From Prevotellaceae bacterium (lineage in GTDB: Bacteria > Bacteroidota > Bacteroidia > Bacteroidales > UBA932), in contig JAIRSZ010000161.1 in the NCBI GenBank assembly GCA_031255195.1, positions 1 to 35,618 on the forward strand: a DNA stretch of 35,618 nt, read 5' to 3'. This document shows positions 2,918-35,302 of this stretch, one piece after another; position 1 is the stretch's first letter, and each line of letters starts with the position of its first letter. The notes below the pieces were generated by a model. The model saw only the letters and a list, made by a program, of their open reading frames with translations, was not told the origin of the DNA and did no database searches. A program made the translations under genes and the position numbers.

Positions 2918-3304
2918 ATGAACATTCCTAAGAATTTGAAGTACAGCCACGAACACGAATGGGTACGTGCTGAAGCCGACGGTACTGCATACGTTGGCAT
3001 TACCGATTACGCGCAGAGTCAGCTTGGCGACATTGTGTTTGTCGATGTAAACTCGGTAGAAGAAACGCTCGCAAAGGGCGCAACCTTTGGTGCGATAGAG
3101 GCGGTGAAAACCGTTTCAGACCTTTTCATGCCCGTTGGCGGTCAGGTGCTGGAGTTAAACGACGAGCTGAACAGCTCCCCCGATCTGGTGAATAAAGACC
3201 CATACGGCGAGGGGTGGATGATTAAGGTAAAAATCGGCGACGCCGCAGAGCTTGACGACCTGCTGGATGCCGACGCCTACGCTAAAATCTGCGACACGCA
3301 GTAG
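2918..3304 (+). CDS. gcvH: Glycine cleavage system H protein
   Basis: [19 protein letters not shown]...[17 protein letters not shown]...[18 protein letters not shown]; lipoyl-lysine context EAVKTVS; 128 aa. Confidence 0.97.
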
Positions 3305-3486
3305 CCCATACCCTGAAAAAAAAGCGTACTTAATTCTCATAATTCTAAGCTTACCGCATGTCGTTGATGTGCGGGCGTGAAGGTATTACCTTTAAGCAAG
3401 CCGCCATCACCACTTGGTAAGGCGACGGCTGAGAAGTTGAGGATTAACCTTCGGCGCGTGGCAGTGAGCCAACGGACTATCTGCCT

Positions 3487-4770
3487 TTACCGGTATTTTC
3501 CCTTCCAGAGCTGCTCCATTCGTGCCCTGATTTCGCGCTCTTTGGGGCTGTCGCCCGGAACGTAGAACGTTGTCCTCGCTATTTTTTCGGGCAGGTAGTC
3601 GAGGTCTACAAAGTTGTTTTGGTAGTCGTGGGCGTACTTGTAGCCCTTGTGGTAGCCGAGGTCTTTCATCAGCTTGGTGGGGGCGTTGCGGAGGTGAAGC
3701 GGCACCGGCAGGTCGCCCGACTGCCGCACCTGCGCAATGGCGGCCTCAACAGCTAAGTACGAGGCGTTGCTTTTGGGGCTTGTGGCAAGGTAAACTGCGC
3801 ACTGCGCCATTACAATTCTTCCTTCCGGCATCCCGATAACCTTAACGGCGTCGAAGCAGGCCTGCGCCATGAGCAGCGCGTTGGGGTTGGCCAATCCCAC
3901 GTCTTCAGCGGCCAGAATCACCATGCGGCGGGCAATGAACAGCGGGTCTTCGCCGCCCTCAATCATGCGCGCCAGCCAGTACACCGCCGCGTTGGGGTCG
4001 CTGCCGCGCATACTCTTGATGAAGGCCGAAATGATGTCGTAGTGCTGCTCGCCGTTTTTGTCGTACAGGGCGATATTTTCCTGTAGACGTTCGGTTACAA
4101 TGCTGTTGTTGATGGTGATGGCGTCGTCGCTGTCGAACGAGCTGACCACGATTTCCAATATGTTGAGCAGCTTTCGGGCGTCGCCGCCCGAAAAGCGAAA
4201 CAGCGCCTCCGTTTCTTCAATGTTAAACTGCCGCTGCTTCAGGTAGCTGTCGGTGGTAACGGCGCGCTCCAGCAGCTTTTTCAGATCGTCCACCTCCAGC
4301 GATTTCAGCACGTAAACCTGACACCGCGAGAGTAGGGGCGATATGACCTCAAAAGAAGGGTTTTCGGTGGTTGCGCCAATGAGCGTAACCGTTCCGTGCT
4401 CCACCGCGCCCAGCAGCGAATCCTGCTGCGATTTTGAGAACCGGTGAATTTCGTCGATGAAAAGAATAGGGTTTGGCGTGCTGAAAAAGCGTTGCCGTCT
4501 GGCATCTTCAATCACCTCGCGCACGTCCTTCACGCCGGCGTTCACGGCGCTTAGCGTGTAAAACTTGCGGTTTTGGCGATTGGCGATGATTCGCGCCAGC
4601 GTTGTTTTTCCCACGCCAGGCGGCCCCCACAGGATAAAAGAGGAAAGCTTGTCGCCTTCCACCATACGGCGCAGCACGGCATTTTCCCCCACCAAATGTT
4701 GCTGCCCGACGTAGTCGTCCAGCGTTTGTGGGCGCAGCCGCTCGGCTAAGGGTATGTTTGACTGTTCCAA
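3487..4770 (-). CDS. rarA: Replication-associated recombination protein A (AAA+ ATPase, RarA/MgsA)
   Basis: PLAERLRPQTLDDYVGQQHL, Walker A GPPGVGKTT, Walker B LFIDEIHRF, IGATTENPSFEV, C-terminal YKYAHDY. Confidence 0.96.
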   Translation of the reverse strand: MEQSNIPLAERLRPQTLDDYVGQQHLVGENAVLRRMVEGDKLSSFILWGPPGVGKTTLARIIANRQNRKFYTLSAVNAGVKDVREVIEDARRQRFFSTPNPILFIDEIHRFSKSQQDSLLGAVEHGTVTLIGATTENPSFEVISPLLSRCQVYVLKSLEVDDLKKLLERAVTTDSYLKQRQFNIEETEALFRFSGGDARKLLNILEIVVSSFDSDDAITINNSIVTERLQENIALYDKNGEQHYDIISAFIKSMRGSDPNAAVYWLARMIEGGEDPLFIARRMVILAAEDVGLANPNALLMAQACFDAVKVIGMPEGRIVMAQCAVYLATSPKSNASYLAVEAAIAQVRQSGDLPVPLHLRNAPTKLMKDLGYHKGYKYAHDYQNNFVDLDYLPEKIARTTFYVPGDSPKEREIRARMEQLWKGKYR

Positions 4771-4784
4771 ATCTCAAAAAAATG

Positions 4785-5732
4785 TTATACTTTCAAAATT
4801 TCATCCAGCTCCTCGTCCGTAAAGCCGGTATTGTTTAGCGCGCCTGTGTTCTGCCGAAGCTGCTCTACGCTGCTTGCGCCCACTATCACGGAGGTTACGC
4901 GCGTATCCTTGAGCAGCCATGCAATGGCCATTTCTGCAAGAGATTGCCCGCGGCGGGCGGCAAGCTCGTTGAGGCGCGCCACGCGCTTTACAACCTCCTC
5001 CGTTACCTGCTCGCGCTGCAAGAATCCATGAGGCTTGGCGGCGCGAGAATTTTGCGGAATGTCCTGCAAATACTTTGAGGTAAGCAGCCCCTGCGCCAGC
5101 GGCGAAAAGGCTACGAATCCAACGCCGTTGCGCTCCGCAGCATCCAGCACCCCCTGCTCTACGTTGCGCGTCAGCAGGCTGTACCTGTCCTGGTTCACTA
5201 AGCACGGCACGTGCTGCTGCGCCAATATTTGGTATGCCTTTTCAGCTTGCTCCACCGGATACTTTGAGATACCTGCGTAGAGCGCCTTGCCCTGCTTTAC
5301 CACATCTATCAGGGCTTGCATGGTTTCCTCTATCGGCGTGCTGGGGTCGTAGCGGTGCGAGTAGAAAATGTCAACGTACTCCAGCCCCATGCGCTTGAGG
5401 CTTTGGTCGAGGCTGCCGATGAGAGACTTTCGCGAGCCGCCGTCGCCGTAAGGTCCGGGAAACATCAGGTGTCCGGCTTTGGTGCTTATCACCAGCTCGT
5501 CGCGGTGGCCGGCGAGGGTAGTTTTGAGTATTCGGCCAAAATTGACCTCCGCGCTGCCCGCAGGTGGCCCGTAGTTGTTGGCAAGGTCAAAGTGCGTAAT
5601 GCCGCTCTCGAAGGCATATTTCACGATGTCCACAGCGACGTCAAACCTATCCACATCGCCAAAGTTGTGCCACAGCCCCAGCGATATGCGTGGAAGCTGC
5701 AAGCCGCTTTTCCCGCAGTAGGCGTACTTCAT
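4785..5732 (-). CDS. Aldo/keto reductase, YghZ/Gpr-like (L-glyceraldehyde 3-phosphate reductase type)
   Basis: MKYAYCGKSGLQLPRISLGLWHNFGD, FDLANNYGPPAGSAE, YSHRYDPSTPIEETMQAL, IVGASSVEQL. Confidence 0.93.
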   Translation of the reverse strand: MKYAYCGKSGLQLPRISLGLWHNFGDVDRFDVAVDIVKYAFESGITHFDLANNYGPPAGSAEVNFGRILKTTLAGHRDELVISTKAGHLMFPGPYGDGGSRKSLIGSLDQSLKRMGLEYVDIFYSHRYDPSTPIEETMQALIDVVKQGKALYAGISKYPVEQAEKAYQILAQQHVPCLVNQDRYSLLTRNVEQGVLDAAERNGVGFVAFSPLAQGLLTSKYLQDIPQNSRAAKPHGFLQREQVTEEVVKRVARLNELAARRGQSLAEMAIAWLLKDTRVTSVIVGASSVEQLRQNTGALNNTGFTDEELDEILKV

Positions 5733-5944
5733 GATAGCTATGAATTATAGATTATGAAATTATGAATTTTTGTGCTGAAAAAGTCGGCACAGCTCGCTTC
5801 GCAGGATTGCCGGAGAACGGCCATACCCATGTTTTTTGCAGAGCGATAATCCATAGCGGCATTGCGAAAAAATTCACCGCTTCCAAATGCACAAACGCAG
5901 CCTCGTATTTTAGGGCAAGACATATACCGCACTTCATACCTCCC

Positions 5945-6637
5945 TTACATTTTTCCTTCGTAAAAAGCTTTGCCCACAATTACCGCCGGTACGCCGGCTT
6001 GCTGCAAATCTTCCACGTCGCTCATTTGGCTCACCCCGCCGCTGGCAATGAGGTGCAGCTGCGGGAAGCGTTCCAGCAGCTTGCGGTACAGGGCAACGTT
6101 AGCGCCCTGTAACATGCCGTCTCTGCCAATGTCGGTGCAGATAACCTGCGTAACGCCTTTGTCGACGTATCCGGCAACGAAGGGCAGCAAATCCGTCTGC
6201 GTGCTCTCCTGCCAGCCGCTCACGGCAATTTTTTCATCTGTAACGTCTGCTCCAAGGATAATCTTGCTGCCTCCGTAGGTGGATATCCAGCGCGTAAACT
6301 CTTCGGGGTTTTTTACGGCGATGCTGCCTCCCGTAACCATAGCTGCGCCGCACTCAAAAGCTATGCGCAGGTCGTCGGATGTTTTCATGCCTCCGCCAAA
6401 GTCCACTACCAGCTGCGTGCGAGTTGCTATTTGCTCCAGCGCCCTGTAGTTGACGATGTGCTGCGCCTTAGCTCCATCTAAGTCAACCACGTGAAGGCGC
6501 GTGTAGCCTTTGGCCTCAAACTGCTTTGCCACCTCCAGCGGATTTGTGCTGTACACCTTTTTTTTTGTGTAGTCGCCTTTGGTAAGCCTGACGCATTGAC
6601 CGTCGATAATGTCAATTGCAGGGATTACTTGTATCAT
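5945..6637 (-). CDS. hisA: Phosphoribosylformimino-5-aminoimidazole carboxamide ribotide isomerase (HisA); C-terminus appears short
   Basis: IPAIDIIDGQCVRLTKGDY, HVVDLDGAK, VDFGGGMK, CTDIGRDGMLQG, IASGGVS; stops right after AFYEGKM. Confidence 0.93.
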   Translation of the reverse strand: MIQVIPAIDIIDGQCVRLTKGDYTKKKVYSTNPLEVAKQFEAKGYTRLHVVDLDGAKAQHIVNYRALEQIATRTQLVVDFGGGMKTSDDLRIAFECGAAMVTGGSIAVKNPEEFTRWISTYGGSKIILGADVTDEKIAVSGWQESTQTDLLPFVAGYVDKGVTQVICTDIGRDGMLQGANVALYRKLLERFPQLHLIASGGVSQMSDVEDLQQAGVPAVIVGKAFYEGKM

Positions 6638-7125
6638 GCTGATGGAGTTATAGAGTTAAAAATAAAAAAAGCAGCGGCTATGATGCAGTAAATGAACTTA
6701 ACGCCAACGGTAAGCAGAAAGCCCGCAAACGAGTAGCAGGCTATAGTGAAGGCGCGCCCGACGCTGTTGTTATACATCAGCTCGCCGATGAGCGCCCCCA
6801 AAAACATACCCAGCAGCATACCCACAGGGGTGAGCAAAATTCCGGCTATCATCCCGATAAGCGCCCCGCGCGCCCCATACTTAGAGCCTCCTGCTTTGAG
6901 CGTAACCCATCCGGGGATGAGGTAGTCCAGCACAAGAACGGCAAGCAGCACGCCTCCCATAGCTATAAGCAGGATAATGCTGTTGGAAGGGACGCTCTCC
7001 GAACAAAAATGGCGGAGCAGCAGGGCGGCATACGCAAAAACAGGACCCGGCAGCATGGGCACAAAACAGCCCAAAAATGCCACAACCAACAGCAGTAACC
7101 CGATGATGACGATTATCGGTTCCAT
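6634..7125 (-). CDS. DUF456 domain membrane protein; stop codon overlaps the hisA start (ATGA)
   Basis: Hydrophobic protein with LGCFVPMLPGPVFAYAALLL, GARGALIGMIAGIL..PVGMLLGMFLGALIGEL; 4-bp overlap with hisA read directly at 6634-6637. Confidence 0.88.
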   Translation of the reverse strand: MEPIIVIIGLLLLVVAFLGCFVPMLPGPVFAYAALLLRHFCSESVPSNSIILLIAMGGVLLAVLVLDYLIPGWVTLKAGGSKYGARGALIGMIAGILLTPVGMLLGMFLGALIGELMYNNSVGRAFTIACYSFAGFLLTVGVKFIYCIIAAAFFIFNSITPSA

Positions 7126-7165
7126 TTCAGATTTTAGATACTCCGAACTTCAACTTTCCTGGCGT

Positions 7166-9262
7166 TTAGTTATTAAACCCCTCTCGTTTCAGCAAGGCCT
7201 CGATGGTTGGCTCTTGCCCGCGGAAGCGTTTGTAAAGTTCGAGGGGATGCTCGCTGCCGCCCTTCGAGAGAATGTTGGCGCGGAAAGAGGCGGCTGTGGC
7301 CGAGTCGAATATTCCGTTCTTTTTGAATACGGAAAAAGCGTCGGCGTCGAGTACCTCTGACCACTTGTAGCTGTAGTAGCCTGCCGCGTATCCGCTCGAA
7401 AAGATATGGCCAAACGAAGTACTGACGGAAGCGCCCTCCACGGCAGGCAGCAGAAGCGACGGGGCTATTGCCACCTTTTCAAAATCGGCAATGCTCCCCG
7501 TAAGCTCTTTGTCAATGGTGTGGTAGGCCATGTCGAGCAGGCCGAACGTGAGCTGGCGCAGCGAGTAGTATCCTGCAAGAAAATTCTGGCTGGCGATAAT
7601 TTTTTCAACCAGCTCTGCCGGAATTTTTTCGCCCGTTTCGTAGTGTTCGGCAAACATGTCGAGAAACTCCTTTTCCTGTCCCCAATTTTCCATTATTTGC
7701 GAAGGCAACTCCACGAAATCCTTGTAAACGTTTGTTCCCGAAAGGCTTGGGTAGGTGCAGTCGGACAACATGCCGTGCAGCGCGTGCCCAAACTCGTGCA
7801 GGACGGTGCTGGCTTCGGAAAAGGTAAGCAGCGCAGGCTTGCTGTCGGTCGGCATGGTGAGGTTGCACACGTTGATGATGTGCGGACGCTGCACGCGGTC
7901 GTTTTGCTTGTGCTGGTCGCGGATGTCGTTCATCCACGCGCCGTTGCGCTTGCCTTCGCGTGGGTGCAGGTCGGCGTAGAAGAGCGCCAGAAATTCACCG
8001 TTCTTGTCGTACACCTCGTAAGCTTTCACGTCGGGGTGGTACACGGGGATTTTTTTATTTTCCTTAAGCGTAATCCCGTAAAGCCTTTCGGCCAGGCCGA
8101 AAACGCCCTTAATAACGTTGTCCAGCTTGTAGTAGGGGCGTATTGCCTCGTCGTTGAGGCTGTACTTTTCCTCCCTCAGCTTCTCGGCGTAGAATGACCA
8201 GTCGTAGGGTTGCAGCTCAAAGTCTGCTCCGTGCCGCTCGGCGCAAGCCTGCACCTCAGCCAGCTCCTTTTGGGCAAAGGGCTTGGAGGCGTTGAGCAGC
8301 TCGTTGAGCAGGTTGTTTACGTTGGTTGTGTTTTGCGCCATTCGCTCTGCGAGGGCGTAGTCGGCGTAGGTTTTGTAGCCCAGCAGCTGCGCCATTTGCA
8401 GGCGGATGTTTACAATTTCGCGAATAATCTCGTTGTTGTCGTCCTGGTTGCCCTGGTTGCCTTTTACGGTGTAGGCAATGTAGAGCTTTTTGCGCAGCTC
8501 GCGGTTTTCGGCATACTTCATAAAGGGCGTATAGCAGGGCTGGTGCAGGGTGAACGCCCAACCGTCGATACCTTTGCTCCGGGCGGTTTCACTTGCCTGC
8601 TCAATGGACGAAGCCGGCAGACCTTTCAGGTCGGACGAGTCGGTAATGGTCAGCACGTAGGCGTTGGTTTCGTTGAGCACGTGCTGCTTGAAGTCGAGCC
8701 TGAGCGTAGACAGCCGCGAGGAGAGTTCGCGGTATCGCGTCTTGTCGGCCTCGCTGAGGCCTGCGCCGCTGCGGGTAAAATGCTTGTACGTCTTTTCGAG
8801 CAGCATTGCCTGCTCGGACGTGAGGGCGCTCCTGTCGGCGTTGTCGTAAACTGTCTTGATGCGGTCAAACAGCTTTTCGTTCAGGGTGATGTCGTTGTTG
8901 TACTCCGTTAGCAGGGGCATCACCTCGCGGGCTATTTGCTGCATTTCGGGGCTGGTTTCGGCCTCGTTGAGGTTAAAGAAAATGCCGCTGGTGCGCGTGA
9001 GCGACGCTCCGCTGTAGTCCAGCGCGGCAATGGTGTTCTCAAAGGTAGGAGCGTCGGCGTTGTTGGCAATAGCGTCAACCTCCTTGCGCCCCTCGTCCAT
9101 GCCGTAGCTGAAGGCGGGCAGGTAGTGCTCGGTTTTTATTTTGTCAAATGGAGTTGCCTCGTGCGGAGTGTTGAACTCCTCAAGCAGCGGGTTGTTGTTG
9201 GAGCTGTTGCAGCCCGATAGCAGCGTAGCGGCAGCGGCGGTGATAAGCATGATATTTTTCAT
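7166..9262 (-). CDS. M3 family zinc metallopeptidase (oligopeptidase A / peptidyl-dipeptidase Dcp-like), predicted lipoprotein
   Basis: Zinc motif HEFGHALHGMLSD; lipobox LLSGC near N-terminus; 698 aa. Confidence 0.94.
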   Translation of the reverse strand: MKNIMLITAAAATLLSGCNSSNNNPLLEEFNTPHEATPFDKIKTEHYLPAFSYGMDEGRKEVDAIANNADAPTFENTIAALDYSGASLTRTSGIFFNLNEAETSPEMQQIAREVMPLLTEYNNDITLNEKLFDRIKTVYDNADRSALTSEQAMLLEKTYKHFTRSGAGLSEADKTRYRELSSRLSTLRLDFKQHVLNETNAYVLTITDSSDLKGLPASSIEQASETARSKGIDGWAFTLHQPCYTPFMKYAENRELRKKLYIAYTVKGNQGNQDDNNEIIREIVNIRLQMAQLLGYKTYADYALAERMAQNTTNVNNLLNELLNASKPFAQKELAEVQACAERHGADFELQPYDWSFYAEKLREEKYSLNDEAIRPYYKLDNVIKGVFGLAERLYGITLKENKKIPVYHPDVKAYEVYDKNGEFLALFYADLHPREGKRNGAWMNDIRDQHKQNDRVQRPHIINVCNLTMPTDSKPALLTFSEASTVLHEFGHALHGMLSDCTYPSLSGTNVYKDFVELPSQIMENWGQEKEFLDMFAEHYETGEKIPAELVEKIIASQNFLAGYYSLRQLTFGLLDMAYHTIDKELTGSIADFEKVAIAPSLLLPAVEGASVSTSFGHIFSSGYAAGYYSYKWSEVLDADAFSVFKKNGIFDSATAASFRANILSKGGSEHPLELYKRFRGQEPTIEALLKREGFNN

Positions 9263-9310
9263 AATTTTTTTTTGATGGTTAATTCTAAATTTTCAACTTC
9301 TTTCTTACTG

Positions 9311-10678
9311 TTAGGGAATTAGGTTTTCCAGCTGGCTCACGCTCCTGTCAATTTCTTCCTGCGGCAGCGAGTAGTTGGTCAGCTTACCGGAGTAGTAGAG
9401 GTCGTAGGCCGACATATCCATCAGCCCATGCCCCGAAAGGTTGAACAGGATTGTTTTCTTCACGCCTTCCTCCTTGGCCTTTTTTGCCTCCCGAATGGTA
9501 GAGGCAATGGCGTGCGCCGATTCTGGAGCGGGGATGATGCCTTCGGCGCGGGCAAAAATGGTTGCCGCCTCAAAGCTTTCGAGCTGCGGAATATCCTGCG
9601 CCTCGATGATTTTTTCGCGGTTGAGCTGGCTAACGATAGTACCGGCGCCGTGGTAGCGCAGGCCGCCTGCGTGGATGTCGGCAGGCTGAAAATCGTGCCC
9701 CAGCGTGTACATGGGCAGCAGGGGCGTTGTGCCCACTTCGTCGCCAAAATCGTACTGAAACTGTCCGCGGGTAAGCTTGGGGCACGAAGCAGGCTCGGCC
9801 GCAATCACTCGCAGCGCCCTGCCTTCCGTGAGCTTGTAGCGCAAGAACGGGAAGGCAATCCCCGAAAAGTTGGAGCCGCCGCCAAAGCACCCAATGACAA
9901 CATCGGGAAATTCGCCCGCTATAGCCATTTGCTTTTCGGCCTCCAGCCCAATGATGGTTTGGTGCAGGATAACGTGGTTGAGCACGCTGCCCAGCGTATA
10001 TTTTGTGTCCGGCGTAGAAACGGCGGCTTCTATCGCCTCCGATATTGCCGTGCCCAAGCTCCCCGACGAGTTAGGGTGCGTGGAGAGAATTTTGCGTCCG
10101 GCGTTGGTTTGGCTGCTGGGCGAGGGGATAACCTCTGCGCCCCAGGCGTTCATCATCGACTTGCGGTAGGGCTTTTGCTCGTAGCTGATTTTTACCATGA
10201 ACACCTTCAGGTCGAGTCCAAACAGCTTGCAGGCAAAGCTGAGCGCTGTGCCCCACTGTCCGGCGCCCGTTTCGGTGGTAATGTGCTTCACACCCTGCTT
10301 CTTGTTGTAGTACGCCTGCGGTATGGCAGAGTTGAGCTTGTGCGAGCCGACAGGACTAACGCTCTCGTTCTTGAAGTAGATATGTGCCGGAGTATCCAAG
10401 GCTTTTTCAAGCCCGCAGGCGCGCACCAGCGGCGTTGGGCGGTAAATTTTGTACACCTCCCGCACCTCTTCAGGAATGTCAACATAGCGATCTTGCGTAA
10501 GTTCCTGAATACAAAGTTCTTTTGCAAAAATCGGCTCTAAATCGGCGACCATTAACGGCTGCTTGGTACCGGGGTGAAGTGGAGGCAGCGGTTTGTTTTT
10601 CATGTCGGCAACGATGTTGTACCATTGCACCGGCAGCTCTTGCTCCGAAAGCAAGATTTTTTTCGGTTTTGTGCTCAT
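9311..10678 (-). CDS. trpB: TrpB2-type tryptophan synthase beta-like PLP-dependent enzyme
   Basis: QWYNIVADM, PTPLVRACGLEKALDTPAHIYFKNESVSPVGSHKLN, ETGAGQWGTALSFA, GCFGGGSNFSG, LFNLSGHGLMDM; long N-terminus characteristic of TrpB2. Confidence 0.93.
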   Translation of the reverse strand: MSTKPKKILLSEQELPVQWYNIVADMKNKPLPPLHPGTKQPLMVADLEPIFAKELCIQELTQDRYVDIPEEVREVYKIYRPTPLVRACGLEKALDTPAHIYFKNESVSPVGSHKLNSAIPQAYYNKKQGVKHITTETGAGQWGTALSFACKLFGLDLKVFMVKISYEQKPYRKSMMNAWGAEVIPSPSSQTNAGRKILSTHPNSSGSLGTAISEAIEAAVSTPDTKYTLGSVLNHVILHQTIIGLEAEKQMAIAGEFPDVVIGCFGGGSNFSGIAFPFLRYKLTEGRALRVIAAEPASCPKLTRGQFQYDFGDEVGTTPLLPMYTLGHDFQPADIHAGGLRYHGAGTIVSQLNREKIIEAQDIPQLESFEAATIFARAEGIIPAPESAHAIASTIREAKKAKEEGVKKTILFNLSGHGLMDMSAYDLYYSGKLTNYSLPQEEIDRSVSQLENLIP

Positions 10679-29392: not shown

Positions 29393-30256
29393 TCAGTTAA
29401 ACCGATTCAGGAAGCTGTATATGTCCTTTGAAAAATCTTCTCCGCTTTCGCGGAAAGCGCCAATGAGATACCGCCCCTTCCAGGCTATTGGAATGTTCCC
29501 GTTATACCGGTCTTCGGCGCGAAGATTTCCCTCCGCAAAGTTCAGCGGCTGCCGGGTAAAGCCGAAGTAGTCGCTGAGAATTTTCTCTGCGCCCTCCCTT
29601 GTCTTGCCATCAATCACAAACAGCTGGAACTTTAGCCCGTTCAGGTTGTAGTCGAGCGTGTAGGCAGACTTCAAAAACTCGTGTCCGATGTAGTTTTGGG
29701 GAATGTACGATTGGGTGTGCGGTAGCTGCCCCTCCTTCGGAAACGATTTGAATATTTCGGGGTACGATGCGCTTGCGTCAATCTTTGCCGCCAACCCTTT
29801 GGCTATTGCCTTGAACGTGCTCGTAATTTCGTTGCTTTTGCTGCTCGCCGACATTTTTACGTAGACGCTGCCCGAAAAGAAAAACAGCCCGTATTCGTCG
29901 CCCTGCGCCTCGCCGCCTATGCCCGGATAAAACTCCATATCCGGCGAACGCTCGGATGCGTACATGCCGAAGGCGTCTTCGGGGGTTGCGTGGCGGTATG
30001 CCTGGATGGTGATGTAGTCGTTGCCGCGAGTGTAGACCATGCTCGTCATCTCCTGGAAGTTGTTTTCCAAAAATGCGGGAGCAGCGCCGTTGATGCGCTC
30101 AAACAGGTTTTCGCCGTCAAAAACCTCCACTTGCGGCGATATTGTCCAGCCCTTGACGGGCGGCAGTCCTGAGTGCATATCCGTTGGCGACTGCGCGATA
30201 GCCTGCCCTGCAAGGCAGGACACGGCCAACATGACGTACTGAATTTTACGATTCAT
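29393..30256 (-). CDS. DUF6599-like exported protein
   Basis: Signal peptide MNRKIQYVMLAVSCLAGQAIA; FDGENLFERINGAAPAFLENNF, YRHATPEDAFGMYASERSPD pattern; family from memory. Confidence 0.7.
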   Translation of the reverse strand: MNRKIQYVMLAVSCLAGQAIAQSPTDMHSGLPPVKGWTISPQVEVFDGENLFERINGAAPAFLENNFQEMTSMVYTRGNDYITIQAYRHATPEDAFGMYASERSPDMEFYPGIGGEAQGDEYGLFFFSGSVYVKMSASSKSNEITSTFKAIAKGLAAKIDASASYPEIFKSFPKEGQLPHTQSYIPQNYIGHEFLKSAYTLDYNLNGLKFQLFVIDGKTREGAEKILSDYFGFTRQPLNFAEGNLRAEDRYNGNIPIAWKGRYLIGAFRESGEDFSKDIYSFLNRFN

Positions 30257-30280
30257 GCTTCAATCTCAAATTAATTTTAT

Positions 30281-31465
30281 TTACACCAGAAAACGTGAGG
30301 GTACGTCGACAATGGGCGCAATGGCCGCAATCTTGTCGGCAACGCTAAACTTCGACGAGCAGCGCGTCACCGTGCACTTTTCGCAGCCTGAGCAGGGGTT
30401 GCCCGCAATGGCAAGCTCGGTCAGCGTGCCCTTTGCCAGCGAGGGGTATTTGTAGCCGTAGCTGTACATGTAGGCGCGCATAATGTCGGGGACGGGCAGG
30501 TGCTTTGAGCACTGCTCCACGCAGCTGCCACAATTCTGACAGTAGAGCAGCTCCTGCTCCTTGAGGCTTGCGAGGTACTTTGCGTCCGTTTCTTCGAGCT
30601 TTGGCGAGTGAGCCGCCTCAAGGCAGTTGTCCAGCAAATCGAAGCTTGTAAATCCCGGTATTGCCGTTGTGATGTTTTTGTTTTGCCACACCCAGCGCAG
30701 GCAGGCTGCGCCGTTTATTTTCGACGCTCCTTTTGCGTCGGCTACGCCTCCAACCATTGTTTTCATGGCAACAAAGCCCATTCCTGCGTCCACGCCGCGC
30801 TGAATGGCTGCGTCGAGCTCGGGGAGAATATCCAGCTTGAAGTTGTAGCTCACCAGGCACACCTCGTAGATTCCCGCTGCAATGGCCTCGTCGATTTGGG
30901 CGGGCTTGTTGGCGTGCGTGGAGAAGCCAATGTGACGGGCTTTTCCGTCGGCTTTGAACTTCTTTAGCATCTTAACCAGCCGTGGGTTGTTGAGGTCTTC
31001 CGTATTGCCGATGGCGTGAGCGTAGAAAACGTCCACGTAGTCCATCTTCAGGCGGCGGAGGCTTGTGTTCAGCTGCTCCTCGTACTCCTGCTCAAAGTTG
31101 TCCGACTTGAGGTTGGGCTTGATTTTGGTTGCAATGGTAAAGGTGTTGCGGTCTTTGTCCTGAAAAAAAGCGCCGAGCAACTCTTCATTTTTCCCGTTCT
31201 GGTAGCCGTTGGCGGTGTCGAAGTGGGTTAGCCCGGAGTTGTAGGCCGCGCGAACAACGGCCGGATTGTCAGCGCGCATCACGCCCATGCTCAGGATGGG
31301 TACTTCCATGCCCGTTTTACCCAACATGCGGGTAGCAATCTTTTTTTTGGCATTGCCCGCGGGATTTGCCAGGGCAATCCTGCTGCCGGTTATCTGCGGG
31401 ACAACAGCGCTTACGCCCGCCAGGGCGAAAATGCTGAAAAACTTACGTCTGTTGATATTTTCCAT
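30281..31465 (-). CDS. Tat-signal aldo/keto reductase with C-terminal 4Fe-4S ferredoxin-like cysteines
   Basis: Twin arginine NRRKFFSIFALAGVSAVVP; AKR motifs FDTANGYQNGKNEELLG, YVDVFYAHAIG; CQNCGSCVEQCSKHLPVPDIMRAY plus CSGCEKCTVTRC. Confidence 0.92.
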   Translation of the reverse strand: MENINRRKFFSIFALAGVSAVVPQITGSRIALANPAGNAKKKIATRMLGKTGMEVPILSMGVMRADNPAVVRAAYNSGLTHFDTANGYQNGKNEELLGAFFQDKDRNTFTIATKIKPNLKSDNFEQEYEEQLNTSLRRLKMDYVDVFYAHAIGNTEDLNNPRLVKMLKKFKADGKARHIGFSTHANKPAQIDEAIAAGIYEVCLVSYNFKLDILPELDAAIQRGVDAGMGFVAMKTMVGGVADAKGASKINGAACLRWVWQNKNITTAIPGFTSFDLLDNCLEAAHSPKLEETDAKYLASLKEQELLYCQNCGSCVEQCSKHLPVPDIMRAYMYSYGYKYPSLAKGTLTELAIAGNPCSGCEKCTVTRCSSKFSVADKIAAIAPIVDVPSRFLV

Positions 31466-31759
31466 AGCGAAAACAAATTTATTTTATGGTTAATGTGTGA
31501 ATTTTCGGATGTCCTTAATTTTGCCAAAAATTAGCCGCTTTCCCTTAGCGGGTACATTCTCCCGAAGGTAAATGTTATCCCCCCACGGCTTCGCAAGTCA
31601 GGAGGCAAAGTTTCTTAGCGGTTGTTGTGTATAAAAAAATGATTGTCTCCGGCAGCAAATATACAATTTTTATTCTAAGTGAGATTTTTTTCTATGGTAA
31701 AGTTGCATTTGTTGGGTGAATTTACAAACTTTGCAGGCTCAAAATCCCCAGATGTTGTT

Positions 31760-32566
31760 ATGAGAATACTTTGTATGATAGGATTATCGGTCGCGTTGCT
31801 AAGCTGCTCCTACACAGCGCAAGGCAAGGATGAGCGTATGCACGGCTACGACGCTGACCACTCCAGCTACTTTTTTCGGGTATACGTGCCGGACAAAAGC
31901 GTGCAGCTGGGGTTTTCGGCCGGTTGCAGCTGGTACGACGCTACGCTGGTGCGGCCGGAGGATTTTCGCAACGGATTGAATATTTCGCCTGCGGCCAACC
32001 ACCTTCATGTGGGTGCGATGGGCGAAAAAGGCTTTTTCAACATGCGAATCACCATTACTTCGGGAGTTTACTACTCGCAGGTCAACAGCTACCTGCTTGG
32101 CTGGCCAGGCTACAAGGGCGCTGTCTACGTGGTCGACTCCGAGGATGCGCAAACCGTGCGCTACACCTCCGTGAGCGACGTCAGGTCGGTTACCTCGTGC
32201 GTTAGCATCCCTGTTGAGTTTACCTACTTGCTGTACAGGCAGCCCGATATGGGAGTTTACCTCAAGGGTGGCCTGATGGCCAACTTTAACGTACATGCCG
32301 GCACAAAATTCAGCGCCACAAGCTACGATACCTCAGAGGAGGTTAAGCAGCGGCTGACGAGCTACTTTACGGACAGCGAAACTTTTTCTGCCGACGCTTA
32401 CGCCAGGTTAGGCATACGCTGGGGAGACTTCGACAGCCCCAACTTCAGGCTGGAGGTGGGTATTCCCTTCATGCTTTCCGAAAGCAGCGGCCTGTACTAC
32501 CGCACGAAATTGGGCATTACAGCGCAAATAGGGCTGTACATTCCTCTGTTCATTTTTTACCTTTAA
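31760..32566 (+). CDS. Exported protein, probable outer-membrane beta-barrel
   Basis: Signal sequence MRILCMIGLSVALLSCSYTAQG; alternating aromatic/hydrophobic strands (YLKGGLMANFNVH, YYRTKLGITAQIGLYIPLFIFYL). Start set at ATG 31760 where the signal peptide begins. Confidence 0.6.
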   Translation: MRILCMIGLSVALLSCSYTAQGKDERMHGYDADHSSYFFRVYVPDKSVQLGFSAGCSWYDATLVRPEDFRNGLNISPAANHLHVGAMGEKGFFNMRITITSGVYYSQVNSYLLGWPGYKGAVYVVDSEDAQTVRYTSVSDVRSVTSCVSIPVEFTYLLYRQPDMGVYLKGGLMANFNVHAGTKFSATSYDTSEEVKQRLTSYFTDSETFSADAYARLGIRWGDFDSPNFRLEVGIPFMLSESSGLYYRTKLGITAQIGLYIPLFIFYL

Positions 32567-32585
32567 AATAAAAAAGAAAAAACGT

Positions 32586-33218
32586 ATGATGAAAAAAATA
32601 CTGCTCGCAACGTTTTTCGCCACGCTATGCCTGATGCTGCCAACCCTGCACAGCTGCGATAGCAAAGCAGACGAAGCCTTCTTTGACGACTATGTGATGA
32701 TGTTCGACGGCGAATTGCCCAAGTACACTGAGTATGGCTACAACACGGCGGGAGCAAATGTTGCCATCAAAATTGCCGGCAGGTCGAAACAGATTTGGAC
32801 GCTCTACTCTTCCGGCGCCAGCGCGGTTATTGTAAAAACGGAAACCGGAATATGCAGGTTGACGATGTCGGGGCAAATGCTTTACCAGCAAATGACGCTG
32901 ATGTTCGACCTGGCCGAAATGCCCGACTCGCTTCTTGGGTTGCAGGATCTCGTCGGCAGGCAGTTTTCCCTCAACCCTGCCAGCAATTTGGATTACACAT
33001 CAGCTTCGCTCAAGGTTACCAGCAGCCGTGCCATCTACAAAGGCGAGCAGCTCTACGGCGTCAGCTTTTCAGGAAGATTTGAGGCGTCCGTCCTCATGTC
33101 AGGTGGGGCAGGCGGGGAAGATGAAGAGAACAGCGGCGCTGCACAGAGCGTAAAAGTAAGCGACGGACGATTCGATATTTTGTTCAAAAGTCACGACGGT
33201 ACAACTATTTCCAACTAA
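32586..33218 (+). CDS. Hypothetical lipoprotein in operon with a TonB-dependent receptor
   Basis: Signal/lipobox MMKKILLATFFATLCLMLPTLHSC; 20 bp after the previous gene, 35 bp before the TonB receptor. Confidence 0.75.
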   Translation: MMKKILLATFFATLCLMLPTLHSCDSKADEAFFDDYVMMFDGELPKYTEYGYNTAGANVAIKIAGRSKQIWTLYSSGASAVIVKTETGICRLTMSGQMLYQQMTLMFDLAEMPDSLLGLQDLVGRQFSLNPASNLDYTSASLKVTSSRAIYKGEQLYGVSFSGRFEASVLMSGGAGGEDEENSGAAQSVKVSDGRFDILFKSHDGTTISN

Positions 33219-33253
33219 CCCTGTGTATTATCACTAAATCAAAAAAGAAAAAA

Positions 33254-35302
33254 ATGAAAAGAAAAACAAGTAGAAGTCTCATTTGCTTTTGCCGCTGGAC
33301 GCGCAAGCGCTACGCTGTGTTCAACAGCCTTGGCAGGCAAATAAAAATCGGCGTGCTGGCCACAAGCTTGTCGCTGGTAACGCTCGGTGCACAGCAGGCC
33401 TCGGCGCAGGCAACAGCAGAGCAAGCCTCCGAGCGCGAGCCGGAAACCGACCCCGTGCCCATAGGCGAGGTGACGGTAACGGGCGATAAAACGCTGGCCA
33501 TTGCCGAGCCGGTGCGCGTGGTAGCCCTCATCAGCCGCAGCGACATCGAGCGGGCGGCGGTGCAGAACATCCAAGACCTGCTGCGCTACGTTGATGGCGT
33601 TGACGTAAGAACGCGCGGCAGCAACAATGTGCAGGCCGACATATCCCTCCGCGGCGGCACTTTTGACCAAACGGTCGTCCTCCTCAACGGCGTAAACATT
33701 ACCGACCCACAAACCGGACATCACTCCCTAAACATCCCCGTTAACCTCGAAGACGTGCAGCGCATAGAGGTGCTGCAAGGCCCCGGCGCATGGACGTTTG
33801 GCGCGGCTACCTACAGCGGCGCCATCAACATTATTACGAGCGCACCAAACCGCTCTGGTGGCTCTGTGGGGTTGGCGCAGGGGATGCACGGCTACCAAAG
33901 CGCTAACGCCACCGGAAACCTTGCCGCAAAAGGCTGGTGCGCTGCTCTGTCGGCAAGCAAAAGCAAGAGCGACGGGTACGCCGGCAACACCGACTTTGAC
34001 GTGGATAACGTGTACGCCCAGCTGCGCTACACTACCGAAAAAAGCGGCACGCTCAGCGGACAGCTCGGCTACCAGAGCAAAGATTTTGGGGCAAACAACT
34101 TCTACACGCCGGAGTACCTTCACCAGTACGAGCATACGCAGACGCTCCTTTCGAGCCTGCGCTACGGCGTTGAAAGAGAAAAGTGGGGGCTGAGCGCAAC
34201 GCTCTACCACCGCCAACACTACGACCGCTACGAGCTGTTTCACGTTAACCCTGCCGAATGGTACACCGGCCACAGCTACCACCGCACCGACGTGGCGGGG
34301 GCGCTGGCGCAGCTCACCCGCCTTAGCCGGCTGGGGACAGGCACGGCAGGCTTCAGCTACCGCTACGAGCACATCTACAGCAGCGCGCTGGGCGAGCCGA
34401 TGCAGGAAAATATCGCCGTGAAAGGAGAGGGGGGGAGCAACGCTTTTTACGCGCGTGAAAAAAAGCGCGAGCATTTCTCGGTCTTTTTGCAGCACGCCCT
34501 GCACGCGCAGCGGGTACACGCCACGCTTGGGCTGATGGGCGCCGGTAACAGCGATTTTGGCTTCCGCGCATACGCCGGAGGAAACGTAACGTATGACCTC
34601 AGCTCGGCGTGGAACTTCTGCGCTGCCCTCAACAACGACTACCGCCTGCCAACGTTTACCGACCTCTACTACAAAGTCGGCTCGTACAGGGGCAATCCTG
34701 ATTTGAAGCCGGAGGAGGCCGTCACCGGAGAGCTTGCGCTGCGCTACCGCCGGACGTTATGGCGAGCCTCAGCATCGGGATTTTACCGCTACGGCTACCG
34801 CCTCATCAGCTGGAGTCTCAACCCGAACGACAACCTGTGGTACGCGCAGAACATTGCCAACGTTGCCACCGTTGGCGCAAACCTTCACGCCGAGTATGCA
34901 CCGCAGAGGCAGCTGCTCAAAAAGGCCGCCATTGCCTATGCCTACCTCTACGCCACGCCGAGCGGCAGGGAGGAGGCGGCCAGCTACGTGGTGGAGCAGC
35001 TGAGCCACCGCCTCACGGCAACGTTGCAGCACGGCGTTTGGAGGCGGCTGTCGGCGTCGTGGCAGCTACAGTACCAGCAGCGCGCCGGCGTCTACAAGCC
35101 TTTTGACGTTGAGGCGAAAACCTACGTTGAGGCCGTTCCTTTCAAGCCGTTTTGGTTGTGCGATTTGAAAATAGGCTGGGAAGGCGAGAGCAGCAGCATC
35201 TTTGCCGCCGCCACCAACCTGTTTGACGTCGCCTACTTTGATTTTGGAAATATCCCGCAGCCCGGACGGTGGGTAAAGGCCGGAATCACCGTAAAATTTT
35301 GA
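33254..35302 (+). CDS. TonB-dependent outer-membrane receptor (BtuB/FepA-like, no carboxypeptidase-like N-terminal domain)
   Basis: Plug domain QNIQDLLRYVDGVDVRTRGSNNVQADISLRGGTFDQTVVLLNGVNITDPQTGHH..IEVLQGPGAWTFGAATYSGAINIIT; barrel motif NDYRLPTFTDLYYKVGSYRGNPDLKPEEA; terminal GRWVKAGITVKF. Confidence 0.93.
   Translation: MKRKTSRSLICFCRWTRKRYAVFNSLGRQIKIGVLATSLSLVTLGAQQASAQATAEQASEREPETDPVPIGEVTVTGDKTLAIAEPVRVVALISRSDIERAAVQNIQDLLRYVDGVDVRTRGSNNVQADISLRGGTFDQTVVLLNGVNITDPQTGHHSLNIPVNLEDVQRIEVLQGPGAWTFGAATYSGAINIITSAPNRSGGSVGLAQGMHGYQSANATGNLAAKGWCAALSASKSKSDGYAGNTDFDVDNVYAQLRYTTEKSGTLSGQLGYQSKDFGANNFYTPEYLHQYEHTQTLLSSLRYGVEREKWGLSATLYHRQHYDRYELFHVNPAEWYTGHSYHRTDVAGALAQLTRLSRLGTGTAGFSYRYEHIYSSALGEPMQENIAVKGEGGSNAFYAREKKREHFSVFLQHALHAQRVHATLGLMGAGNSDFGFRAYAGGNVTYDLSSAWNFCAALNNDYRLPTFTDLYYKVGSYRGNPDLKPEEAVTGELALRYRRTLWRASASGFYRYGYRLISWSLNPNDNLWYAQNIANVATVGANLHAEYAPQRQLLKKAAIAYAYLYATPSGREEAASYVVEQLSHRLTATLQHGVWRRLSASWQLQYQQRAGVYKPFDVEAKTYVEAVPFKPFWLCDLKIGWEGESSSIFAAATNLFDVAYFDFGNIPQPGRWVKAGITVKF

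Follow-up and report, generated by a model that had tools for sequence, protein, structure and literature searches.

An outer-membrane operon in a genus of Bacteroidales joins a conserved barrel–lipoprotein pair to a TonB-dependent receptor of a probable biotin regulon

Introduction

Ribosome-arrest and other regulatory leader peptides, of which TnaC and SecM are examples, are one point of comparison for the locus described here; another is the uptake of vitamins across the outer membrane. To our knowledge, no TonB-dependent receptor for biotin has been characterised, and our literature searches found neither a biotin TonB receptor nor a biotin leader peptide in Bacteroidetes. The biotin transporters named in a survey of vitamin pathways in gut bacteria are BioY and YigM; TonB is not mentioned in the text of that survey (PMC6593275).

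One of the closest described arrangements is that of BtuB and BtuG, a TonB receptor working with a surface lipoprotein (PMC6143338). Like the BtuB–BtuG system of Bacteroides, the operon studied here encodes a TonB receptor together with a probably surface-exposed lipoprotein. It differs in that the lipoprotein is a 210-aa protein of the Riean_0653 type with no 7-bladed propeller, in having an extra barrel protein, and in that the linkage of receptor and lipoprotein is limited to one genus. On balance, we consider it probable that the operon is one transcription unit carrying two independent modules: a barrel–lipoprotein pair, and a TonB-dependent receptor of a biotin regulon with a leader peptide, for which biotin would be the substrate and the leader would act in regulation.

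Results and discussion

Organisation of the locus

By the window we mean the whole stretch of DNA that was analysed (35,618 nucleotides). The features of interest within it are as follows.

31726..31733, + strand: Bacteroidetes −7-like box, AAACTTTG, with 1 mismatch to TAnnTTTG; probable operon promoter
31760..32566, + strand: gene for a predicted 8-stranded outer-membrane beta-barrel protein, PF13568-like, 268 aa; start codon kept in congeners
32586..33218, + strand: gene for an outer-membrane lipoprotein, probable divergent member of the Riean_0653 family (NF052634), 210 aa
33254..35302, + strand: gene for a TonB-dependent receptor, plug plus beta-barrel, 682 aa; predicted receptor for biotin or a biotin precursor
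33287..33358, + strand: core of the leader-like segment of the receptor, residues 12–35, FCRWTRKRYAVFNSLGRQIKIGVL, common to bioB/bioA leader ORFs

An earlier, sequence-only reading of this DNA had described three plus-strand genes, and the open reading frames bear this out, with gaps of 19 bp between barrel and lipoprotein and 35 bp between lipoprotein and receptor. The close relatives used for comparison (congeners) are 'Prevotellaceae' MAGs of a single genus, whose termite-gut origin we read from their bin codes. The order barrel–lipoprotein–receptor is kept in six of them (L043–L048), with identities to the window of 72–78% for the receptor, 47–64% for the barrel and 32–48% for the lipoprotein, while in two further congeners the locus is split by contig ends (L050 with L157, L158). 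In congener L049 (G133:C191; genome 50% complete) a diverged barrel and lipoprotein pair (∼30% identical) adjoins unrelated genes, with no receptor beside it.

TAnnTTTG is found 21–44 bp 5′ of the barrel start in L043–L047 and is also present in L049 and L050; in the window, as in L048, the box upstream of the barrel deviates from it at a single position. Both intergenic gaps lack TAnnTTTG in all seven intact loci. Since most members of the genus have a −7 box ahead of the barrel and none in the gaps, the three genes are most likely one transcription unit, and the earlier description of the locus as an outer-membrane operon holds.

The barrel and lipoprotein as a two-gene unit

The barrel protein scores 26.2 bits (1e-5) against PF13568 (OMP_b-brl_2), for which the gathering cut-off is 27, and 19 of 26 relatives match this family. 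AlphaFold models of the lipoprotein and barrel (pLDDT 81 and 83, pTM 0.73) predict for the latter eight transmembrane strands in an OmpA/OmpW-like fold.

When 294 further Bacteroidales genomes were searched with a profile of the barrel, 18 of them proved to contain relatives. Wherever the downstream side was on the contig (16/16 genomes), a lipoprotein gene of the window's type follows the barrel directly, and no TonB receptor of the window's family lies near the pair in any of the 16 testable non-genus genomes. Barrel and lipoprotein are an obligate two-gene unit across Bacteroidales. They very likely act together, and may do so as a complex. At the level of the class, searching for lipoproteins of the barrel-paired type gave the window and one partial match only, so the type is apparently limited to Bacteroidales. 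In other families of the order the pair loci (L109–L123, L125, L126) form a stand-alone two-gene unit of sporadic distribution.

Cys24 of the lipoprotein, the lipidation site, is invariant in 25 relatives. Two or more acidic residues lie within positions +2 to +8 after this cysteine in all 25 lipoproteins (mean 2.4, expected 0.9). Acidic residues after the lipidated cysteine constitute export signals of surface lipoproteins in Bacteroidetes (PMC5080379), a resemblance by which we judge the lipoprotein to be probably surface-exposed.

The sequence-only reading could place the lipoprotein in none of the SusD, BtuG or HmuY families, and our searches agree. The protein has no Pfam match; no SusD match was found with Pfam or NCBIfam models, HmuY is not among the families matched by the 25 relatives, and at 210 aa, with a beta model, it shows neither a propeller in the model nor a propeller match in the PDB listing. 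It appears to be a distant member of the Riean_0653 family: all 25 barrel-paired lipoproteins match NF052634, several relatives scoring above its curated cut-off of 57 bits and the window's lipoprotein reaching 24.4 bits over its full length. The window-type lipoproteins share with this family a similar LP-x-x-T-x-x-G-x-NTFG motif near the mature N-terminus. However, family members from other orders, unlike the window lipoprotein, have no adjacent barrel among the neighbours listed, and Bacteroidales members of NF052634 without the paired-type sequence likewise have no barrel alongside. The lipoprotein model is predicted to be beta-rich and a structure search with it gave no convincing PDB or binding-protein match; weak lipocalin-like matches in Foldseek (E 5.8e-3, TM about 0.2) were set aside, and PDB sequence searches with barrel and lipoprotein yielded nothing useful. 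For the pair itself, we found nothing that links it to biotin.

The receptor and its orthologues

Matches to the plug domain PF07715 (67.3 bits) and the barrel domain PF00593 (73.3 bits), both over cut-off, identify the third gene product as a TonB-dependent receptor. It consists of plug and barrel and, as had been claimed from sequence alone, is not of the SusC type, having no Pfam or NCBIfam match to the carboxypeptidase-like N-terminal domain of SusC.

The receptor is single-copy, with orthologues in 8 of the 20 non-genus Bacteroidales sampled. Outside the genus, 29 orthologues have no barrel or lipoprotein gene beside them, and the same neighbouring gene family was never seen at more than two of the 29 named cousin loci. 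Of genomes bearing the pair, 13 of 21 have the receptor, as against a background of 8/20. Given that receptor presence is near background, and that pair and receptor are apart outside the genus, the three-gene operon represents a genus-level joining of two modules. By sequence comparison, the receptor is a widespread, otherwise stand-alone orthologue that is joined to the pair only in the genus of the window.

These results go against the lipoprotein-assisted uptake system that the sequence-only reading had proposed. The upstream genes are linked to the receptor within the genus and unlinked outside it, the latter being what that reading had named as evidence against itself. On account of this separation we reject a dedicated three-part uptake system as a unit of general occurrence. 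A narrower version, in which the three proteins form one machine within the genus, with the lipoprotein capturing biotin at the surface and handing it to the receptor while the barrel anchors the lipoprotein, is in our view unlikely. The operon is conserved in the genus, and the acidic residues after the cysteine resemble surface-export signals (PMC5080379), but the pair is kept without the receptor in other families, pair and receptor show no co-occurrence signal, congener L049 has the pair beside other genes, and the lipoprotein model finds no convincing binding-protein match.

An N-terminal segment shared with biotin genes

The first ∼35 residues of the receptor form a charged and aromatic segment that is nearly invariant in the genus and recognisable in cousins. 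Neither these nor the first ∼50 residues have a Pfam or NCBIfam model match. The core motif is F-x-R-W-[ST]-R-K-x-Y-A-V-F-x-S-L-G-x-x-[VI]-x-I-G-x-L. Because our scan of named cousins was seeded with the segment itself, we built a profile (A6) from receptor N-termini only. In a six-frame search of 149 Bacteroidales, A6 matched in 62 genomes, with a single match in almost every one. We examined 60 distinct segments in context. Receptor N-termini account for 41 of them. Another 16 form short ORFs that precede bioB or bioA on the same strand, two form short ORFs directly upstream of the receptor (L285, L289), and one is fused in frame to BioB–BioA (L269, G257:C1; an 803-aa ORF at 7317–9728, minus strand, comprising segment, BioB and BioA). 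Thus all 60 lie on the receptor or on biotin genes, and no other context occurred among those examined. The BioB and BioA identities are over NCBIfam cut-offs in the representatives tested. Nine of 20 non-genus receptor orthologues lack the segment, and those have ordinary signal peptides.

At the 16 bioB/bioA loci the distance from leader ORF to gene ranges from −239 to +267 bp, starts having been chosen mechanically. The leader stop and the next start overlap by exactly 4 bp in L240, L244, L246 and L285, which suggests translational coupling. In L285 (G479:C7, 7136–9573) the stand-alone leader ORF overlaps a receptor that bears its own segment, giving tandem copies.

Physical linkage of receptor and bioB was seen only twice, among 86 receptor loci scanned together with L232. 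In L265 (G213) the receptor is followed by bioB after a 72-bp gap. In L232 (G285:C1:161000-172000), positions 3277–8196 carry a leader ORF, bioB, a sodium/solute symporter and a segment-bearing receptor, in that order; this locus is a candidate operon for biotin synthesis and uptake, and its symporter may carry biotin across the inner membrane. There is a good likelihood, judging by the segment it shares with bioB/bioA units, that the receptor belongs to a biotin regulon marked by that segment.

The conserved entity is the peptide

The third codon positions of the segment are free, with all synonymous codons in use. For residues that are shared, codon identity amounts to 0.37 in the leaders and 0.39 in the receptor N-termini, close to the 0.35 of a bioB control. 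No Rfam family matches at the leaders, in a search that can be considered to work since the same run detected an unrelated cobalamin riboswitch (L238) and a tRNA. From these observations it follows that what is conserved is the peptide rather than the nucleotides, and from peptide conservation with free synonymous sites we infer that the leader ORFs are translated. The 5′-terminal location of the segment in biotin-related transcription units would also fit an RNA or DNA element (an operator or riboswitch) whose translation is incidental; against the codon usage and the Rfam result, we find this scarcely credible.

The sequence-only reading had assigned signal sequences to all three genes. The receptor's is atypical; its segment also occurs on cytoplasmic biotin genes. 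The receptor version does resemble the extended signal peptide region (ESPR) of autotransporters, in being a long conserved charged and aromatic extension ahead of a hydrophobic core, and long signal sequences are found in type V secretion (PMC2805444). It is nonetheless very unlikely, in our estimation, that the segment is only an extended signal peptide of this kind, with the biotin association due to shared ancestry or chance. The short leaders are without the hydrophobic stretch that is present on the receptor version (Mann-Whitney p = 7e-7), from which we conclude that the segment is not simply a signal peptide. Moreover, unlike the ESPR, it is found on non-exported biotin genes, including the cytoplasmic BioB–BioA of L269, and so is not primarily an export signal. 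All 19 cases outside receptor N-termini concern biotin genes or the receptor.

The likely substrate of the receptor

The sequence-only reading had suggested a metal chelate or a cofactor as cargo; our analysis retains the cofactor as likely, and makes a metal chelate less likely than biotin. The best full-length match of the receptor in all seven congeners is TIGR01779 (TonB-B12, BtuB), and like BtuB the receptor has a plug and barrel architecture and a cofactor as likely cargo. This match, together with the BtuB–BtuG plan of a lipoprotein and a TonB receptor (PMC6143338), is what could be said for a BtuB-like cobalamin receptor with the lipoprotein as a helper in place of BtuG. We regard this as quite unlikely. 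The window receptor scores 115.3 bits (2.9e-33) against an equivalog cut-off of 599.7, a search for cobalamin riboswitches that did detect one at L238 found none in the window, nor in 8 loci of congeners and 12 of cousins, and the lipoprotein, at 210 aa, has no beta-propeller match. Further, in contrast to BtuB, the receptor carries an N-terminal segment tied to biotin genes, and two orthologues adjoin bioB.

A FepA- or HmuR-like receptor for a metal chelate or heme, with the lipoprotein as capture subunit, is highly improbable. Siderophore- and heme-receptor profiles do match the receptor, and in Riemerella, Riean_0653 mutants showed reduced haemolysis in a transposon screen where 7 of the 24 genes were iron-related (PMC7881567). 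However, the profile matches are weak and all far under cut-offs, there is no HmuY match, and the lipoprotein is unlinked to the receptor outside the genus. The recombinant Riean_0653 protein is moreover not a haemolysin, and its iron link is indirect (PMC7881567).

No BioB was detected in the window genome, where the best score was 33.5 bits against a cut-off of 225; as the genome is 92% complete, this is not proof of absence. Biotin or a precursor is the best candidate for the substrate, on the grounds that the segment is exclusive to biotin genes and the receptor among those examined, that two receptor–bioB linkages exist, and that the window genome has no detected BioB. We regard it as probable that the receptor serves biotin (vitamin B7) and not iron or B12; given the segment and the bioB linkages, a metal chelate, heme or B12 would be less likely as its substrate.

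A possible model for the control of biotin supply

Of the two modules of the operon, the first is an outer-membrane pair whose members, a barrel with eight predicted strands and a lipoprotein that is probably surface-exposed, very likely act together. The second would be a receptor that brings biotin or a near precursor (dethiobiotin, for example) into a cell that lacks BioB. The first ∼35 residues of this receptor would be a conserved regulatory peptide, which elsewhere takes the form of a short leader ORF at bioB, bioA or the receptor, or of a fusion to BioB. The likeliest mechanism would be cis-acting translational control by the nascent peptide: when biotin is plentiful, the peptide would pause the ribosome or bind a partner, thereby limiting biotin synthesis or uptake to times of need. 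We tentatively propose, while thinking it somewhat less than even in likelihood, that Bacteroidales control their biotin supply by a conserved nascent-peptide sensor, which may be a separate bioB/bioA leader ORF or the N-terminus of a TonB-dependent biotin receptor. In common with leaders of the TnaC and SecM type, the segment occurs in short, conserved and presumably translated ORFs that precede, and frequently overlap, the gene thought to be under their control, and is conserved at the level of the peptide. It is unlike them in being tied to biotin genes and in that it can also form an in-frame N-terminal extension of the presumed target protein.

A peptide shared by biotin-synthesis operons and a receptor would give a handle on biotin sensing in these bacteria. 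It would also link a receptor that many Bacteroidales possess (8 of the 20 genomes sampled outside the genus) to a substrate. If true, the nascent-peptide sensor would constitute a new regulatory peptide along with a biotin-specific outer-membrane receptor. Similarity to BtuB at the level of profiles can mislead the annotation of such receptors. The barrel–lipoprotein pair is a second, separate and widely conserved unit.

Some further observations were made. No viral contigs were found. The single FecCD permease of the window genome sits on another contig and is uninformative. Upstream of the operon, at 29393–31465 on the minus strand, the divergent genes encode a DUF6599 protein and an aldo/keto reductase, the latter with an RRKFF twin-arginine-like N-terminus and weak matches to 4Fe-4S domains.
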